A stretch of DNA of 39,966 bases from positions 1 to 39,966 of the forward strand of contig JACPMV010000054.1 in assembly GCA_016185845.1 (NCBI GenBank), read 5' to 3'. Origin of the DNA: Candidatus Woesearchaeota archaeon. Lineage in GTDB: Archaea; Nanobdellota; Nanobdellia; Woesearchaeales; GW2011-AR4. The notes below the pieces were generated by a model. The model worked only from the letters and a program-made list of their open reading frames with translations. It was not told the origin of the DNA and searched no databases. This document shows positions 6,236 to 36,490 of the stretch, piece by piece (within the stretch, counting starts at the first letter, position 1; every line of letters starts with the position of its first letter). The position numbers were made by a program, and so were the translations under genes.

Positions 6236-6724
6236 ATGGCGCTTATTTTCAGCTCAAAAAAAGGAGTATCTCCGCTGATTGCTACTATTCTTCTGATAGC
6301 TTTTGCTGTTGCGCTCGGCTCTGTAGTAATGAACTGGGGCCTGAACCTGAATTTAGGCAAGCCAGATGACAAATGCGGCAATGTCGCTGTAAAAATAAGG
6401 GAAAGCGGCAATTTTGAAGCATGTTACGGGGATTTTGGGCAGAATGCCTACATCAACTTCATTTTGGACAATGTCGGAGCTGCCGACATAAGCGGGCTTA
6501 CCATATTAATCGTAGGGGAGAAAGGAACCAAGCTTTCCGAGCTGCAAAAAGCAATCAAAAAAGAGTCTTTGCTGGATGAAAAAAGCAAGGAAGTCAGCTA
6601 TAATTTTGATGTTTACGGAAGCATAAAACAGGTCCAGTTCATACCGAAAGTTGTGGTTAACCAGGAAACGGTTGTCTGCGCCAAGAATTTGGCGGAAGCC
6701 AACAAAATCGGGATATGCGGCTAA
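6236..6724 (+). CDS. Archaeal type IV pilin-like / archaellin-N-terminal-like secreted protein
   Basis: MALIFSSKKGVSPLIATILLIAFAVALGSVVMNWG: class III signal peptide (KKG|VSP) plus hydrophobic H-domain. Confidence 0.85.
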   Translation: MALIFSSKKGVSPLIATILLIAFAVALGSVVMNWGLNLNLGKPDDKCGNVAVKIRESGNFEACYGDFGQNAYINFILDNVGAADISGLTILIVGEKGTKLSELQKAIKKESLLDEKSKEVSYNFDVYGSIKQVQFIPKVVVNQETVVCAKNLAEANKIGICG

Positions 6725-7497
6725 TAAACCTTTAATATTTTTCTCAGGGCCATGGTGAATATTATCGAGCACCATATGTAGACCCCGAGCCATCCAAGCC
6801 AGTCCCTGAAGCCGATAGGTATAAGGACTTTTTTCTTGTAATCTATTGAAATTGATTTTATGCTGCCCTTGGCCTGCTTCAAAGCCGGCAGATATTTGTT
6901 TTCATCAGTTATCAAAACGCTGTGCTGCTGATTCTCTTCATTGTAGGATATTTCTATGACGTGCTCGCCTTCTTTTCCTTTTAATTTCCACGAAGCTGTT
7001 TTCTCGTATGTTTTTTTATTGACTGTTCCAGCGGCTATTTCTGCCTTGGCATTTCCAATGATTGTTATTTCTTCAGGCACAATTATTTGCGCTTCGCCGC
7101 CTGCAGTTTTATCAAAAACCGCATAAACACTGAATTCCTGCATGGGGTGTATGCTGTCGTAGGCGAATGTAGCGTTCATCCACCCGAATATGAAAAAAAT
7201 AGGTATTAGCGTGATTAAAGTAGGCTTGAGGGAATGCGACATGTATTTCATGTTTGATTCCATGGCTTTTTTCTGCATCTCCATCATTTTTGCAGGGTTG
7301 CCCTTCAGCTCTTTCATCTGTTTTTGATATGATTTCATCTCGTACTTGAGATTTTTCATCGTCTCCTGGTTTGTCATGTATTTTGTTATCAGGATTATCA
7401 GGAGAGAGATTAAAAATGACAGGATTATAATAGCCAAGAGAGTAGGGAGCTTGAGCAAAGGGGCAAATGCAATATTTAAAAAATCATAATATGCCAT
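6721..7497 (-). CDS. DUF106 / EMC3-like membrane protein (archaeal YidC-like insertase family)
   Basis: TM segments and coiled-coil YMTNQETMKNLKYEMKSYQKQMKELKGNPAKMMEMQKKAMESNMKYM; located after secY as in other archaea; ATG 7497 preferred to GTG 7506. Confidence 0.85.
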   Translation of the reverse strand: MAYYDFLNIAFAPLLKLPTLLAIIILSFLISLLIILITKYMTNQETMKNLKYEMKSYQKQMKELKGNPAKMMEMQKKAMESNMKYMSHSLKPTLITLIPIFFIFGWMNATFAYDSIHPMQEFSVYAVFDKTAGGEAQIIVPEEITIIGNAKAEIAAGTVNKKTYEKTASWKLKGKEGEHVIEISYNEENQQHSVLITDENKYLPALKQAKGSIKSISIDYKKKVLIPIGFRDWLGWLGVYIWCSIIFTMALRKILKVY

Positions 7498-7500
7498 CTC

Positions 7501-7528
7501 AGCCACCCATGAGTTTTCTCATAATCGG
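7501..7528 (-). pseudogene. Diverged duplicate of the secY 3' end
   Basis: Minus strand encodes PIMRKLMGG* versus the true SecY tail PMMRKFMGG*; agccacccatgagttttctcataatcgg vs agccacccatgaacttacgcatcattgg, 22/28 identical. Confidence 0.6.
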
Positions 7529-7544
7529 CAGCCTTTTAGCAAAA

Positions 7545-7635
7545 TGTCGAAAATCTACAGATTTTCGAGCACACGCAAACCTTTGGTTTGCTTTGGCTTG
7601 ACCAAAACTATGCAATGTGGAATTTTCAATTCCAC
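7545..7635. repeat. Hairpin block C: three consecutive perfect inverted repeats
   Basis: TCGAAAATCT/AGATTTTCGA (7547-7556, 7559-7568), GCAAACC/GGTTTGC (7575-7581, 7585-7591), GTGGAATT/AATTCCAC (7617-7624, 7628-7635); first hairpin set as TGTC...GAGCA. Confidence 0.8.
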
Positions 7636-7653
7636 GAAACGATTGAAACATTT

Positions 7654-9057
7654 TTAGCCACCCATGAACTTACGCATCATTGGATTCATGTCCATCATGT
7701 GCTGCCTTGCTATGTCCTCATAAAGCCTGTAAACAATCATGACTGTAAGCAGCAGTCCTGTCCCGCTTGTCAATGCGCCGGTCAGGTCTGCAAGGGCCGC
7801 CAAAAATCCCACTGCAATCCCTCCCATTATTGTCAATGGCCAGATATACCTGTTGAGCAATCTTTCCAAAACTCTTTCATCTTTCCTGAATCCCGGAATC
7901 TGCAGGCCGCTTGAAATCATCTGCCTGGCCTGCGATTTTGCGTCCATGCCTGCAGTCTGCACCCAGAAAATGCTGAATATAACGCTGCCGACGATAAAAA
8001 ATAGGATGTATACCAATGCCTGCAGATATTGAGTTGAGCCTATCAATAAGGTATGCTGCTGTATGATACTTCTTATGATGCTTGGGCCCTGCAGCCAGTA
8101 TACAAAACCCGAAATCGGCTGGCCTGTTGATGCGCTGAAAGTCCCAAGCCACGCATGGCCTGCGTTTTGCAGCAGCCTCCCCCACAGCTGGAAATTTGCA
8201 ATCAATGCTGCTACCAATATAACGGGGATGTTTGAAGTGTAGATGAAAGCCAACGGCCATCTTATACCGTGCCCCCTAACCATGCCGAATGACAAAGGAA
8301 TTTCAACTTTCATGGCCTGGGCATATACTGCAATGACAAAAACAAGTATAGTGGCTATGACTGCAGACAGCATTATAGTTGCTGTAGTTATTTCCCCGTT
8401 TACCAGGCTTATCACAAAAGTAGGTATCGCGCCTGGCGGATAAATCGAGCCAGGAGGCACTATCCAGTTGAATGCCTGCAAAAACAGGCTTTTGCTTACG
8501 CCTGCCGCAATAAAAAGGCTGATACCGGAGCCGAATCCCCATTTGCTCACTACCTCATCTAAAAACAGTATCAATATTCCGCCTAAAATAAGCTGGAACA
8601 CAAGCATCAGCTGCAACTGCAAGTAAAATCCGGTGCCTGCAAAATTCTCCGGCGGGGCCAATCCCCCCAAAAAAACATAGATAGCTCCTTCAAATATTAT
8701 GAAAAAGAAAGCCATCATTTTTTGGGTGCCCTGGAATGATTTTTTGCCTTCCGGATTTGTAAGGTCAAATTTCCATATTCCCGAGCCGTTGAGCAGCTGC
8801 AATACTATAGAGGCAGTTACTATGGGTCCTATTCCCAGCGAGATTATTGATCCGAATTCAGCGCCAAGCAGGATAGACAAAGTCTCAAAATTCTGCAATG
8901 CGTTGACTCCCAAGCCAAACAAGGGCATTAAGCCCAATATGAAAAAGATAGCAAGCACTATCCCTGTCCACTTAAGTTTTTCCCTGAAAGAAAGGGTCTT
9001 TTGAGTAGGCCCCTCAACTTCCGGAAGATTTGAGATTATGGTGTGCCAAAGAGACAT
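7654..9057 (-). CDS. secY: Preprotein translocase subunit SecY
   Basis: 467 aa polytopic protein; GLMPLFGLGVNALQNFETLSILLGAEFGSIISLGIGPIVTASIVLQLL; position after L15. Confidence 0.95.
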   Translation of the reverse strand: MSLWHTIISNLPEVEGPTQKTLSFREKLKWTGIVLAIFFILGLMPLFGLGVNALQNFETLSILLGAEFGSIISLGIGPIVTASIVLQLLNGSGIWKFDLTNPEGKKSFQGTQKMMAFFFIIFEGAIYVFLGGLAPPENFAGTGFYLQLQLMLVFQLILGGILILFLDEVVSKWGFGSGISLFIAAGVSKSLFLQAFNWIVPPGSIYPPGAIPTFVISLVNGEITTATIMLSAVIATILVFVIAVYAQAMKVEIPLSFGMVRGHGIRWPLAFIYTSNIPVILVAALIANFQLWGRLLQNAGHAWLGTFSASTGQPISGFVYWLQGPSIIRSIIQQHTLLIGSTQYLQALVYILFFIVGSVIFSIFWVQTAGMDAKSQARQMISSGLQIPGFRKDERVLERLLNRYIWPLTIMGGIAVGFLAALADLTGALTSGTGLLLTVMIVYRLYEDIARQHMMDMNPMMRKFMGG

Positions 9058-24799: not shown

Positions 24800-27700
24800 A
24801 TGGCAGAAGAAAACCATTCAAAAATTTTGGCGGCGGAAATTGATAACGCATATGCGATTGCGAATTCCGCGAGATCAAAAGGCTACGACCCGGAAGACAC
24901 GGTCGGAATGCCTCTTGCCAAAAACATGGCTGAAAGGGTCGAAAGCCTAGTCAGCGTGGCGATGCCTCAAATCATAAACAAAGGAATCCCAAAAAGAATA
25001 AATGAGCTTGAAGACAAATACGGCAAGCTGGACTGGAGGGTTGCCTTGACCATCTCTTTGGAAGCTGCCGAGGAAAAATTCTGCGCTTTCAGCACAAAAA
25101 AAGAGGCATTCGAGACAGGAATAAGGATTGGACTTGCATATCTGACGCTTGGCGTTGTGGCTTCCCCCCTTGAAGGATTTGTTGAATTAAAAATCAAAAA
25201 AAGAAATGACGGAAAAGAATATTTTGCGCTGATGTTTGCCGGGCCCATAAGAAGCGCAGGGGGAACAGCCGGGGCAGTAAGCGTTGTCCTGGCAGATTAT
25301 ATCAGGAAAAAGACGGGATATGACGTTTACGATCCTTCAGAAAAAGAAATCAGGAGGATGGTGACTGAGCTTTATGATTATCATGAAAGAGTGACCAATC
25401 TGCAGTATCTCCCAAGCGAAAAGGAGATAAGATTTTTAGTAAGCAACCTTCCTGTCGAAATTGACGGAGACCCTTCTGAAGATATTGAAGTGTCAAATTA
25501 CAAAGATATTCCCAGGATAGAGACAAATCGTATAAGAAGCGGGCCGTGCCTTGTCATGGGAGAGTGCGTTGCGCAGAAAGCGGCAAAGCTGTGGTCCCAG
25601 CTTAGGAAATGGAAATCTGACTTTGACCTTGAGCAATGGAGCTTCCTCCAGGATTTTGTCAGCCTGCAGAGGGAAATAAAATCAAAAGAAAAATTCTCGG
25701 CGCAAAAAATAACTCCAATTTTTACTTACATACAAGATCTTGTCGCAGGCAGGCCTGTTTTGGGGCATCCGTCAGTAGTGGGGGGGTTTAGATTAAGATA
25801 CGGGAGATGCAGGACTTCTGGATATTCTGCAACTGCGATACATCCTGCAACAATGCACATACTGAACAAGTATCTTGCCATAGGGACTCAGTTAAAAGTT
25901 GAAAGGCCGGGAAAGGCAACAGCAATCACATCATGCGATTATATAGAAGGGCCCATTGTAAAATTAAATAATAATAATGTGATGATGATAGACAGCGAGC
26001 AAAAGGCAAAGCAATATACAAATTCCATAAAGGAAATATTATTTTTGGGCGACATCCTTGTCAGCTACGGGGACTTTTACAACAGGGCGCACACTTTGGC
26101 GCCTGCAGGATACTGCGAGGAATGGTGGGCGCTTGAGGCAGAGAAATCGATAATAGGGATGTTCGGGGCTTTGGACTATCACAAGCTCTCGCAACTGGCA
26201 GGCATAGACGCGGCTTATCTGGAGAATATTATTAAAAATTATTTTTTTGAAAAGCCCGATGCAAAAACAGCCGTTGCCTTAAGCAGGACACTGAACCTAC
26301 CATTGCATCCTTGCTACACTTATCATTGGAAAACAATACAGAAAGAAGAGTGTATTGCAATGCTCAGATGGCTTTCTGCTGCAAAAATAGAATCTGAAAG
26401 GGGCATAGCAACAAAAATAATACTGGAGAAGAATGAAGTCGGAAAAAGGGTCCTGGAGCTTATAGGGATGCCTCATCTGTTTGTAAGCAATGAATTCACC
26501 ATAATAGAGAAAGAAGAGGCAGAGATATTATCTGCAGTTTTTAACCTGAACGAAGCGGATTTCAGCAAAAAATACATTGAATCGCCGGCTGAAGATGTTT
26601 TGGATATGATCAACTCTTTTTCCGGTGTGAAATTAAGGGACAAGTCAGGGACTTTCATAGGCGCAAGGATGGGCAGGCCTGAAAAAGCAAAAGTCAGGAA
26701 GATGGACGGCGACCCCCACACATTATTTCCTGTGGGAAAAGAAGGCGGCAAAACAAGGGCATTCCAAAGCGCATTGGAAGCAGGATTTGTAGTCGCGGAA
26801 TTCCCGACTTACGTATGCAAGGCCTGCAGCAAGGAAACAATATTTGCAAAATGCGAGCAATGCGACTCAAAAACAACGAAGACAAGCTACTGTGAGCTTT
26901 GCGGAACAGTTGAAGGTGATAAGTGCAGGCACGGCAAAAATCCGCAGTTCAGGAAGCAAAGGATAGATATAAATCATTATTTCAGCAAGATCATTAAAAA
27001 AATAAACATGAAGCAGTACCCGGACCTGATAAAAGGGGTAAGGGGAACCTCAAACAAGAACCATATACCTGAGCATTTTGCCAAGGGGATATTAAGGGCA
27101 AAGTACAGCATACCTGTGAACAAGGACGGCACTACAAGGTATGACATGACCCAGCTGCCAATAACTCATTTCACTCCAAAAGAGATAGGGACTTCTGCTG
27201 AAGAACTGATAAGTTTTGGATATGAAAAAGACATCCATGGAAATGACTTAACAGATGATTCTCAAGTTGTTGAGCTGAATCCCCAGGACATAATACTGCC
27301 GAAATGCGAAGACGCTCCGGAACTTGGGGCTGACAAGATATTATACAACGTTGCCCAGTTTATAGACGAGCTTTTGGTTTTATTGTATGGCGAGGAAAAA
27401 TTTTATAATCTAAAATCTGAAAAGGACTTGACAGGGCAGCTTGTCCTTGCTCTTGCTCCGCACACATCGGCAGCGATTGTCGGCAGGATAATAGGATTTT
27501 CCAAAACCCAGGGATTTTTTGCGCATCCATTATTTCATGCGGCTACCAGAAGAGACTGCTTAGGCTATAATAATTATGTTTCTGTTAATGATAACGGGAG
27601 CTGGAAGGTCGAAAAGATAGGCAAGGTAATAGAAGAAATAAATCCCTCAGAGAAAGTAGATAATTTCGGAACCCTGGGCAAAAAAACACAAAACACTTAC

Positions 27701-29671
27701 ACATGGAGCAATCCGGGCCAATGCCAGGTGGTAGAAGCAACCAAACATCAGCCCAGAGAAATCTTAAAGCTGCATTTGGAAGACGGCAGGCGAATAGAGC
27801 TGACAGAAAACCACAAAGTCTATCTAAAAGGCAAAAAAGAAAAAAGGGCTTATGAGCTTAAAAAAGGAGACCAGCCGATGGTTTGCTATAACAGAAATAT
27901 GGAGGAAAAAGACATTGAAGAAATATTTTTACCGGAAATTTTTTCCGGCAGGGAAGATGTAATGGTCAGAGGTATAAGGGATTTTCTTTGTAAATTTGAA
28001 AATATAAGCAAACACGAAAACTACTGCTTTAGGGACAGCTTTCCTGTTAAATTTGTTGAAGAAATTTTAATAAAAAACAACAAAACATTAAACGATTTGC
28101 CTACTGAAGCTAGAATATCCATAAAAAGAGACAGCGTTCTGCTGCCTGTCAGGATAAAACTCGATAAGGAACTATTTGAAGTTATAGGGCTGTACATTGC
28201 TGAAGGGTACGTAAGAAAGAATACTTCCAAAAAAGGATTTTATCAGATATCAGTTGCCGGCAACACTGAAATAAAGAATTTTGTCAAAAAAGTATTTTAC
28301 TCCCACTTTAATTTAAAGGCATCTTACGAAAATCCGGACCAGGTAGTTTTTTCTTCCAGAATAGTTTACGAATTATTTAAAGATTATCTGATGATTGGAG
28401 GACGTGCGCACGAGAAACGGATACCCTCAAAATTTTTAAACTTGAAAAAAGAAAAGATGGCGGCATTATTGAGGGGATATTTTGAAGGAGACGGAAGCGT
28501 CAGCATCACAGACACCAGAGTTACATGCGACACAGTCAGCGAAGGATTAAAGCACGATTTAAGCTTTGTCTTGTCACGCTTCGGCATATTCACAAAGTTT
28601 TATGAATATGAGAAAGAGCCAGGGCAAATAGTCAGGGATTTTTATATCAGAAAAAACAGGAAGGTTCCAAAATTCAGGATAACCAAGATAATCATATTGT
28701 CTAATTTTGTCAAGAAATTCAGGCAAATAGGATTTTTATCAGACAGGAAAAACGGCATTTTAGATAAGCTCTGCCAAAAAAACCCGCGCGGGACTTACAT
28801 AGATATTGATGAGCAATATGCGTATCCCAAAATTACAAAAATAGAAAAAATCGGAGAAGACTTAAGCTATTGCTTTAACGTTTCTTCGCAGCATAACTTT
28901 TTTGCCAACGACATACTAGTCCACAATTGCGACGGCGATGAAGCGTCAGTTACGCTTCTTATGGATGCCCTGCTCAATTTTTCTCGGCAATTTTTGCCCG
29001 ACACAAGAGGGGCAACGCAGGATGCGCCATTGGTTTTGACAACACTGCTGAATCCAAATGAAGTTGATGACATGGCATTTGACCTTGATGTTGCGCAAAG
29101 GTATACTCTGGAGTTTTACGAAGCAGCCTTAAAATATGAGATGCCGTCTAACGTCAAGATCGAAAAATTAGGAGACATGCTCAAGACAGGCAAAATAAAA
29201 ATCGGATACACCCATCCTGTAAGCAACATAAACAACGGAGTCAAATGCTCTGCGTACAAGACAATACCCTCCATGGAGGACAAATTAAAGGGGCAGATGG
29301 ACCTTGCAGACAGGATACGGGCTGTTGATGCGGAAGACGTTGCAAGGCTTGTCATTGAGAAGCACCTGCTTAGGGATATAAAAGGGAATCTAAGAAGATT
29401 CTCGACCCAGGAATTCAGGTGCAGCAAGTGCACTGAAAAATACAGAAGGCCGCCATTGGCTGGCAAGTGCCTCGCGTGCGGAAGCCGGCTGATATTCACA
29501 GTTTCAGAAGGCTCTATTGTAAAATACATGGAGCCTGCAATCTCTTTATCTGAAAAATATAATTTAAAGCCTTACCTGAAGCAGGTTCTGCAATTAACCA
29601 AGGACAGGGTTGAAGGCGTCTTCGGCAGAGACAAAGACAGGCAGGAAGGGCTGGGAAGATGGTTTGGGTAG
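24800..29671 (+). CDS. polC: DNA polymerase D large subunit DP2, containing an intein
   Basis: [58 protein letters not shown]; Zn-finger cysteines; C-terminal PIP-like QEGLGRWF. Confidence 0.96.
   Translation: [1623 protein letters not shown]
27557..28927 (+). mobile_element. Intein (457 aa) with LAGLIDADG endonuclease domain in DP2
   Basis: Cys1 after HAATRRD; HINT N-terminal region [21 protein letters not shown]-like GLYIAEGYV and [11 protein letters not shown]; ends [11 protein letters not shown]; splicing would give [11 protein letters not shown]. Confidence 0.93.
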
Positions 29672-33313: not shown

Positions 33314-36300
33314 TCATAATTTTCCTATGAATCCCCTTTTTGGTTCGTACACATCACCAGAACGCTTCAGTCTTTCCAAGGCCTCTTCAACCTTGTTCTC
33401 GTCAAGCCCCCTGTTTTTTGCTTCGGCAACAACATCTTCTATCGGAATTGCTTTTCCAAGCTTTGACTCAAGCTCGGTTATGACATCCTTCAAAATCATG
33501 ATATGGCTTCTCTGGCTTGCCCCAACTCCTGTTGCAATCCTGTCAATGTCTATCTTTCCGGTTTCCCTGTCAAACCCAACCTGCATCAGGCAGTACTCAA
33601 TCAGTTCAATCGCTTTTTTCGAATCTTTTCTTGTGACCCTGCTGTCAAGCCTGGACCTCGCAGATGCCTCGCTCAGCCTTACCAAAGCTTCCAGCTGCCT
33701 TGCAGATATCGGTATTGCCTTTATGCCGCCTTCTGAGCCGCCGCTTTTTCTCATGGTAAGGTAAAAATTTTTTATCTCTTCAAGAGCGCCGTCTGTCAGG
33801 GTAGGAACAATCTTTTGCCTGGCATAAGCTATATATTTTCTTAAAATTTCTGTTGAAATTTCCGGCTCGTTAACTTCAGGATTCTGGTGCAGTGTCAAAA
33901 TATGCTTGGCCATCTTCTCATCCCTTATCTCTTCCGGCAGGTCCTTGATGGGAAATATCAGGTCAAACCTGTTTATCAGCGTAGGCGGCAGATCAATCTG
34001 GTCAGCAATTATTCCGTAAGGATCGAACCTGCCGAATTTCGGATTGGCAGCAGCCAAAACAGTTGTTCTCGCAATCAAAGTAGCCTGTATGTTTGCTTTT
34101 GATATACTTACGGTCTGGTTTTCAAGGGCCTCGTGCATTGCTGCCCTGTCCTCATTGCTCATCTTGTCAAGCTCGTCAACACAGACAAGCCCGTCGCTGC
34201 TTAGCACCATTGCTCCTGCTTCCAAAGCCCAGCCTCTCAGAAATTCGTCTCGGACAACAGCAGCAGTAAGGCCTGCGCCTGAAACTCCCTTGCCGCTTAC
34301 ATACCTTCCTTTTGGGGCGAATGTAGTGATTCTTTTAAGCAGGGCAGATTTTCCGGAATTGTGGCAGACAATCCCATTAGCAATAAACATATGGCTTACA
34401 GGAACTTCAAAATCATAGACATCCCTAATTCCAGCAGGCAAAATCTTCACAACTTTTTCGTATCTTTGAGGTCGTTTTCTTTTTTGAATACCACTCTTAT
34501 TTTTTATTACTTCCAAAACATGCTGCAGCGCCTTCTTTTTCTTTTCAGAATTAAATCCAATATGCTTAGCAAATAGTTCCATATCTCTAGACCGCCTTAT
34601 GCATAAATTATCTTCTATAACCCTTGACTGGATTCCAAAATAAAGAAGCAATAATTGGACGTCAAGCAATAAATCATGTGCTGCAGATTTTAATTGTATG
34701 GAAGTTCTTCCCCTTCCATTTCCGAAAGCGCACCCGTCAGCTTCAAAAAGCCAGCTGACAAATTTAGCTACAACATGATTCGGGCTTCTGAATATTTGCT
34801 GCGGAACCCTTTTATTTGATAAGAAAGATAGCGACTGAGCTATTTGCCTGCTGTTTGTTTCCAATAAGTATAACCTTTGTTTAGCTATAATTTGCCTTAA
34901 AAGTCCAGTCCCATCATCAATAGTCTTAATACTTCCATCAGCTTCTTTTATATGTACAGAAGGAGTTACGTTGAATGTTGTTTTCCAAAGCCCCGAAATA
35001 TTTTCAACAAGATCTTTTTCTTCATTATTAACATAACAGGCTATAGTATACCCTTTTTTATAAACATGCCCATCACCGATGATATACCCGCACAAAGAAG
35101 CCAATTCAGGCGTAAATTTATCCGGAAGTGAAATATTTTTTAAATGCCCTGATTTTTTCGGAACTTTAGTAAAGCTTGTCGGTACAAGATTTTTGACTTT
35201 ATTCGGAACCTTTGGCATGACTCTTATCTCGGTTCCCATTAGAAGTTCATCTGCCCTTTGCCAGCCATTTTTTGTCAGCAGCGGCTGATTATAAGTGCAT
35301 ACTAATTCCTTGCCCGTTTCAGTCACTACCCTAAGAACAGGCTGACCCCTATAATGATGAAAAAGAGTCGCAAAATCATAGAACTTGTCTTTACTGTGCT
35401 TTCTGATTTTTGTAACAATCTCCTTTATAGGCTGTAAATGTTCTTTTCCAAGGCTCTTAATCTGTTCCATTCCCTTGTATACTAAAGAGACTTGGGAATC
35501 GCCAGCAATGCATCCGGGGTCGCCAACAAGCAAAATATGGAAGTCGCCCCTGCTCACGACATTGTCGCTCCTGACTTTCCTGACGCCGCCCATCAGCTGA
35601 AGAAGCAATGCTTCCTTTATCTTTTCATAGCCATAAATTGAAGGGGCAATCGAGTTTACAAGCTTTTCATAGCCATTGGGGTCATTGGCAATCTCAAGAA
35701 TCTGCTTTTCCTCCTCGTCTGTTATTTTTATGTCGTGGAAATTATCCTGCATGGGCTTTATGTAATTTGACTCCATCATAAGGTCAAATCTTGTTGATTT
35801 GCCGCCTGTTTTTGATATGATCGGGACTTCTTTTACTATTCCGATGACTTCCACTTTGCTGCCGGGAGCCATCCTTTTTTCGCTTATCGGGCTGACCAGG
35901 TCATTCGTAAGCAGGACATTGAAGCGCTTTGGCTGCTCTCCGCCCTCAAGATTTTCAGAAGCTTCCTCAAGAACTATTCCCTGGGCATCAACCAAGTCTT
36001 TGTCAAGCATGACAAACTTGCCTTTCCTGCCGCAGCCGCATCTTGTAGGCTCCTTGAAAGTGCCTTCAAGCTGCAAAACATTCATTATGTTGCCGCACAT
36101 CGGGCACTCGAACCTTGCAGAAGTGACCTGCGGCCTTACATCTGATTTCTGCCTTACAAGGCCCTGGATGCATAACAGCTTGTTTATGTGCTCGCTTCTT
36201 ATGTTTCTTATCATAATATTTTGAGTACTCGGAAGATTATGGAAGCGAATCTTGAAATTTGCCAGGCCGTCAATGTCAAACTGCTCAACTGATTTTTCTA

Positions 36301-36490
36301 TGGCCTTTACAGTTTCTTCAGGAGCATCAAGAAGCTCTGTTGCCAGGTCAGGGTCAAATTTGGAAAGCTCGGAGAAGTCCATAAGGAGGAATCTTTCGCC
36401 TCTCCTGGACTTGTCAAGCAAAGAATTGTAGTAATTAACCTCGATGAACTCCTGAAACCTCTTTATCTGGTCAATAACATTAAGCTCCAT
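33314..36490 (-). CDS. mcm: Replicative helicase MCM, containing an intein
   Basis: FECPMCGNIMNVLQLEGTFKEPTRCGCGRKG Zn region; HILLVGDPG...SGKSALLKRI; VCVDELDKM; ANPKFGRFDPY arginine-finger region; C-terminal wHTH. Confidence 0.96.
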   Translation of the reverse strand: MELNVIDQIKRFQEFIEVNYYNSLLDKSRRGERFLLMDFSELSKFDPDLATELLDAPEETVKAIEKSVEQFDIDGLANFKIRFHNLPSTQNIMIRNIRSEHINKLLCIQGLVRQKSDVRPQVTSARFECPMCGNIMNVLQLEGTFKEPTRCGCGRKGKFVMLDKDLVDAQGIVLEEASENLEGGEQPKRFNVLLTNDLVSPISEKRMAPGSKVEVIGIVKEVPIISKTGGKSTRFDLMMESNYIKPMQDNFHDIKITDEEEKQILEIANDPNGYEKLVNSIAPSIYGYEKIKEALLLQLMGGVRKVRSDNVVSRGDFHILLVGDPGCIAGDSQVSLVYKGMEQIKSLGKEHLQPIKEIVTKIRKHSKDKFYDFATLFHHYRGQPVLRVVTETGKELVCTYNQPLLTKNGWQRADELLMGTEIRVMPKVPNKVKNLVPTSFTKVPKKSGHLKNISLPDKFTPELASLCGYIIGDGHVYKKGYTIACYVNNEEKDLVENISGLWKTTFNVTPSVHIKEADGSIKTIDDGTGLLRQIIAKQRLYLLETNSRQIAQSLSFLSNKRVPQQIFRSPNHVVAKFVSWLFEADGCAFGNGRGRTSIQLKSAAHDLLLDVQLLLLYFGIQSRVIEDNLCIRRSRDMELFAKHIGFNSEKKKKALQHVLEVIKNKSGIQKRKRPQRYEKVVKILPAGIRDVYDFEVPVSHMFIANGIVCHNSGKSALLKRITTFAPKGRYVSGKGVSGAGLTAAVVRDEFLRGWALEAGAMVLSSDGLVCVDELDKMSNEDRAAMHEALENQTVSISKANIQATLIARTTVLAAANPKFGRFDPYGIIADQIDLPPTLINRFDLIFPIKDLPEEIRDEKMAKHILTLHQNPEVNEPEISTEILRKYIAYARQKIVPTLTDGALEEIKNFYLTMRKSGGSEGGIKAIPISARQLEALVRLSEASARSRLDSRVTRKDSKKAIELIEYCLMQVGFDRETGKIDIDRIATGVGASQRSHIMILKDVITELESKLGKAIPIEDVVAEAKNRGLDENKVEEALERLKRSGDVYEPKRGFIGKL
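34358..35512 (-). mobile_element. Intein (385 aa) with LAGLIDADG endonuclease domain in MCM Walker A
   Basis: GDPG|CIAGDSQVSLVYKG ... LCGYIIGDGHV and WLFEADGCAFG ... HMFIANGIVCHN|SGKSALL; excision restores GDPGSGKS. Confidence 0.94.

Follow-up and report, generated by a model that had tools for sequence, protein, structure and literature searches.

The window analysed here, a contig of 39,966 nt from a Candidatus Woesearchaeota archaeon, raises the question of why secY is followed by a second copy of its own 3' end, which of the two ends is the older, and how the other was acquired. The junction comprises the following features:

7654-9057, minus strand: secY, 467 aa, in which the final ten codons (7654-7683) make up the new, restored end of the gene
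7529-7653, minus strand: inserted element of 125 bp, separating the new secY end from the old and missing in 13 of 18 congeners
7575-7644, minus strand: match to covariance model R1 (E 8e-10), with the left hairpin CGTTTCGTGGAATTGAAAATTCCACATTGCAT and the 5' arm of the right hairpin GGTCAAGCC
7617-7635, no strand: perfect hairpin 1, the left hairpin of the element
7543-7597, no strand: nested palindrome module in the loop of the right hairpin, with perfect hairpins at 7548-7567 and 7575-7591
7530-7545, minus strand: 3' arm of the right hairpin TTTTGCTAAAAGGCTG, a degenerate version of the family's right edge AAAAGGTTG
7499-7528, minus strand: remnant of the old (ancestral) secY 3' end, PIMRKLMGG and stop, with a TGA-G-ATG junction to DUF106
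6721-7497, minus strand: DUF106 membrane-protein gene, start ATG at 7497

The minus strand reads CCGATTATGAGAAAACTCATGGGTGGCTGA-G-ATG ahead of DUF106, the true secY end being CCAATGATGCGTAAGTTCATGGGTGGCTAA and the old end ATGAGAAAGTTCATGGG. A repeat search aligned 7501-7528 with 7656-7683 at 79% identity, and the best match of the secY tail to the next 170 nt was 22/28, a value reached by none of 20,000 Markov resamplings, which rules out a chance origin of the second end. Four of the six codon differences between the ends are synonymous (CCA/CCG, CGT/AGA, AAG/AAA and TAA/TGA). The preliminary description had claimed this duplicated end with its 22/28 match, the four synonymous differences and a separating stretch of about 125 bp with three perfect hairpins, all of which held. 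The insert has a single-strand fold z of -4.3, contains no ORF and encodes no homing endonuclease. It is a composite, as a second palindrome pair occupies the loop of its right hairpin, and an 83% related copy of this palindrome module was found elsewhere in the same genome, in an intergenic position (G000:C29:3944-3995).

Comparison with the 18 congeners in which the secY-DUF106 junction could be read shows which end is ancestral. The secY stop directly adjoins the DUF106 start (0-5 nt) in 13 of them, and because the two genes abut there the outer copy represents the ancestral junction and the copy attached to secY is the new one; the insertion, the empty site and the ancestral origin of the outer copy are thus shown. 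The remaining congeners have related inserts (G007, G010 and G004), a 46-nt insert (G009) or an AT-rich spacer (G018). G007 has the same layout as the window, each end in its own version, the new one reading CGC AAA TTT ATG GGT GGC TGA and the old one AGA AAG TTT ATG GGA GGA TAA. A secY remnant with an insert at the same place was also observed in other genera (G030, G023, L069, L058 and L109). The earlier proposal that the TGA-G-ATG spacing preserves an ancestral secY/DUF106 junction therefore held, and the empty site it called for in related genomes was found in most congeners; it would have been refuted by relatives with the same spacing and no secY-like remnant, while relatives are either empty or carry a secY remnant of their own. 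The reading favoured below is weakened by g5 and L069, where both secY ends agree with their own genome over the first 27-30 nt, because target duplication or gene conversion predicts the same. A 1.1-kb insertion between secY and DUF106 at L111 holds a nucleotidyltransferase/HEPN-like gene pair; large cargo at the secY site was considered and rejected, L111 lacking a secY remnant.

The insert is a member of a dispersed family of elements whose core is about 62 nt long. Searching with 101 nt of G007 gave matches at many places in congeners, and a 62-nt core, AATCGTTCCGTGGCATTGAAAATGCCACATTGCATGCTTTTGGTCAAGCTTTTTGCAAAAGGTTG, could be aligned from twelve copies, the pairs of its left stem covarying. 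Covariance model R1 gave matches in 21 of 36 genomes of the family, including nearly all congeners, and detected the element in two other genera. The right-hairpin pattern alone had 61 exact matches in 17 of 20 congeners, with none for the reversed control, and the right-hand hairpin is present in further families of the order. The element lies either way round relative to genes. A covariance-model search against Rfam 15 returned no match to it, so that it does not meet the description of a known structured RNA family.

Copies of the element occur in three kinds of place. Intron copies occur in many tRNAs, in anticodon, D and T loops and in both orientations, and at the 16S rRNA site near position 781 (position assigned by eye); ARAGORN reads the element as a canonical intron in tRNA-Pro, tRNA-His and tRNA-Thr. 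The right hairpin was also observed in the 16S rRNA GATTAGATACCC region at L270 (G019:C7) and L295 (G016:C3), apparently as an intron. At gene ends, a complete gene reaches the left side of the element and a second copy of the gene end lies on its right. This succession of new end, element and old end is carried by several tRNA 3' ends, where the duplication always begins in the T loop, by the 3' ends of secY and of an AlaX-like gene, and, on the 5' side, by spt5 and rpl37e; it was also found in other families of the order, at tRNA-Leu (L400), tRNA-Arg (L403) and one protein gene (L402). The duplication ranges across loci from 11 to 46 nt, and the end copies are identical at L109 (34/34), L122 (26/26) and L400 (26/26). 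At one tRNA (L187, G004:C23) tail and element alternate in tandem as tail-element-tail-element-tail, and in another tRNA G001 (L120) has the element as an intron of the T loop, whereas G008 (L115) has it behind a restored 3' end, the right edge being the same in both. Copies of the third group stand shortly before start codons and lack a duplication. At L273, L282, L283, L285, L287, L303 and L306 the right hairpin directly precedes the start codon in the arrangement AGAGGCTTTATGCCTCTYCAAGCTTGACGAG..TTTTTGGTCAAGC..GGTTG(TA)ATG; copies of this kind could serve otherwise, for example as a leader.

Are the two ends of a gene merely duplicates of each other? Over 13 protein cases the codon differences between them amount to 35 synonymous and 9 non-synonymous, and free decay of the outer copy, for which about 30% synonymous changes are expected, would give this with p ~1e-11, a value to be used only as a guide because the 13 cases are not all independent. 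The clearest cases are the AlaX-like gene of G006 (eight synonymous differences and one K/R) and rpl37e of G004 (5/5 synonymous). In five cases (two secY, two spt5 and L402) an arginine codon AGR in the old end is CGN in the new one, and the reverse was never observed. For the AlaX-like gene, the old remnant and its flank agree with the empty site of G012, and the new end, TAC TAC ACA, differs from all congeners (TAT TAT ACT or close). Synonymous divergence of new from old ends is thus shown, and the 35:9 excess together with the AlaX pattern leads us to conclude that a divergent version has taken the place of the gene end, rather than the end being duplicated on the spot. The debranching-enzyme gene ends, excluded from the 13-case test, are mixed (13 synonymous vs. 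22 non-synonymous); their carriers (G016, G003, G014, G015 and G012) are scattered on the genus tree, whose backbone support is weak, and the element may have spread among them by descent or by transfer. Splicing of the debranching-enzyme copy from mRNA was considered and rejected: CAACC in the gene can pair with GGTTG on the element's edge, and the two change together in one genome, but the pairing fails in another.

The preliminary description had offered two models, one in which an insertion in the last secY codons restored the end of the gene and one in which secY recombined with a divergent allele, and each was partly right: insertion and restored end held, and the restored end is a divergent version, not a plain duplication. 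The evidence supports combining both into one reading, to which the present analysis adds the dispersed family of the insert and its habit of replacing gene ends at many genes.

The same layout is found around genuine homing endonuclease genes. LAGLIDADG_3 genes occur in all 20 congeners, with 3-17 matches each, some of them inteins, and a duplicated gene end flanks six of the approximately 55 endonuclease genes inspected, the other ~49 having no clear flanking duplication. At the 5S rRNA gene a complete 5S is followed by the endonuclease and then by a repeat of the last 69 nt of 5S (65/69 in G010, where Rfam confirmed the 5S identity, 68/68 in G004 and at least 33 nt in G011), and duplicated tRNA 5' ends lie beside an endonuclease in G019 (18 nt, and 21/22 nt at another) and G003 (22 nt). 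That hairpin elements and real LAGLIDADG genes share the order of new end, insert and old end is therefore shown. They also share positions: the old tRNA remnant breaks after GGTGGTCTAATGGCT at endonuclease locus L448, where hairpin elements sit in L114 and L201, and after ATAGCTCAGCCTG at endonuclease locus L466, where one sits in L308, so that break and hairpin insertion point coincide to within a base in orthologous tRNAs of congeners. The restored tRNA beside the endonuclease has a small intron at the place of the remnant break (judged by eye). Several points weigh against the reading favoured below: no endonuclease gene was found at the secY site in any genome examined, nor at a protein-gene end among the sampled genes, no obvious sequence is shared by hairpin elements and endonuclease genes, most of the sampled endonuclease genes lack a clear flanking duplication, and the debranching-enzyme counts are mixed.

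Separately, a conserved stretch, GAAAAAGAGAA..ACGCAAAACTGC..CGCAGTTTCGCTTAACATTCTCTTTTTC, lies upstream of the LAGLIDADG gene at L418, L419, L428, L431, L433, L436 and L440, possibly a structured leader common to a mobile endonuclease family, and a second type, CACTGGACAT...CATTTACGCAGTTTC, was also seen ahead of the endonuclease gene. The window itself contains two inteins, within 24800-29671 on the plus strand (LAGLIDADG match 28454-28630) and within 33314-36490 on the minus strand (LAGLIDADG match 34556-35107), in what we take to be, from sequence, the DNA polymerase D large subunit and the MCM helicase.

We favour, with moderate confidence only (probability about 0.55), gene-end replacement driven by homing endonucleases, of which the secY insert would be the endonuclease-less form, either non-autonomous or a homing element that lost its enzyme. 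A LAGLIDADG endonuclease encoded elsewhere would cut a conserved site in the last secY codons, and repair from a donor bearing a divergent or recoded secY end plus the hairpin element would paste both in, so that the recipient's original end is left behind downstream. The pasted end would keep the protein and change the codons, or in RNA genes often carry a small intron, and we propose that it can no longer be cut because of these changes. The cutting, the cut site, the donor and the mobilisation in trans are all inferred; the hairpin elements may move in trans or may be leftovers, and neither is shown. The data are metagenome-assembled genomes throughout, some of them incomplete, the cases partly share ancestry, and there are no cleavage data. 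A bolder reading, to which we would give well below even odds, sees the hairpin elements as natural cleave-and-rescue elements: homing endonucleases would cut essential genes at their conserved ends, and hairpin riders without coding content would spread with a synonymously recoded end, or with an intron in RNA genes, that both repairs the gene and renders it uncuttable.

The most serious competitor, which remains possible, is that the hairpin element transposed and duplicated a long target site (~18-46 bp), only insertions that rebuild a gene end surviving and the two copies diverging afterwards. It accounts for elements flanked by duplications at many genes, for the identical copies at L109, L122 and L400, and for g5 and L069, where both secY copies agree with the host's own codons. 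However, the wide variation in duplication length (11 to 46 nt), the 35:9 synonymous excess and the AlaX-like gene, whose new end is unlike all congeners while its old end matches the empty site, speak against it, as does the practical absence of Cas1/casposase from the genus (a Cas1-family integrase, the mark of a casposon, exceeds the family cut-off in only 1 of 20 congeners). Ordinary homologous recombination, the donor being a divergent secY allele with the palindrome already downstream, would need no special enzyme and fits the synonymously diverged new end, but the recurrence of the same element at many unrelated genes makes it very unlikely.

A tyrosine recombinase may instead have integrated elements site-specifically, with the gene end on their attP, and later deletions may have left only the hairpins. 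This finds support in att sites at gene ends and tandem arrays such as L187, which are typical of archaeal integrases (PMC6563490). Nonetheless, the integrases found are mainly XerA-like and unlinked to the elements (two XerA-like genes near elements are taken as coincidence), no large intact element was found at any hotspot, and random deletion would not leave a constant 62-nt core, so that we regard this explanation as unlikely. Little more can be said for a first entry close to the gene end in the form of a bulge-helix-bulge intron, with the end later re-acquired upstream and the old exon stranded by this bypass. The same core does form tRNA and 16S introns, and L120 and L115 show intron and restored end with a common right edge; against it, an intron that its host gene still requires was not observed in any protein gene, and elements are found both ways round with respect to genes.

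Most known examples of mobile elements that replace gene ends come from fungal mitochondria. If endonuclease-driven replacement is correct, the process spans an archaeal order, acts at tRNA, 5S rRNA and essential protein genes, exists in both endonuclease-bearing and tiny non-coding forms, and joins the origin of archaeal introns, the spread of LAGLIDADG genes and insertion at gene ends; it also makes a testable prediction, namely that a specific endonuclease should be unable to cut the recoded end. Were the cleave-and-rescue reading true, the same elements would supply new archaeal tRNA and rRNA introns. In the open-access literature on LAGLIDADG or introns with tRNA genes, Woesearchaeota and DPANN, no title or abstract describes this system, subscription papers not being covered.

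Among known systems, REP/MITE-like palindromic repeats and mitochondrial double-hairpin elements are likewise short, non-coding, dispersed hairpins, although to our knowledge neither brings a replacement gene end. Casposons and integrase-borne elements (PMC6563490) also insert with duplication at tRNA and protein 3' ends and can re-supply a stop, yet here there is no Cas1 or linked integrase and no large element, and the ends are synonymously diverged. Archaeal bulge-helix-bulge introns of tRNA and rRNA, and their transposition, are resembled by the 62-nt core as a tRNA and 16S intron, and the requirement of removal is met by the copies inside tRNA-Pro, -His and -Thr. The secY insert, in contrast, does not interrupt a needed exon: secY has its full end upstream of the insert, and no removal is needed for the product. 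The closest described process is that of the mobile-ORF endonuclease elements of fungal mitochondria (Allomyces atp6; Glomus atp6, atp9, cox2 and nad3; PMC3630166), where a foreign gene end replaces the resident one, the native end stays downstream, and the inserted end specifies the same protein in different DNA (protein 94-100% and DNA 64-81% against relatives, native end DNA 91-98%; PMC3630166). A new end upstream of the displaced native end, and the same protein in different DNA, are both met here. An encoded endonuclease is present at the 5S and tRNA loci of congeners but not in the secY insert, whose 125 bp of hairpins contain no ORF, and the archaeal family differs further from the fungal one in also targeting tRNA genes, 5S genes and 5' gene ends.
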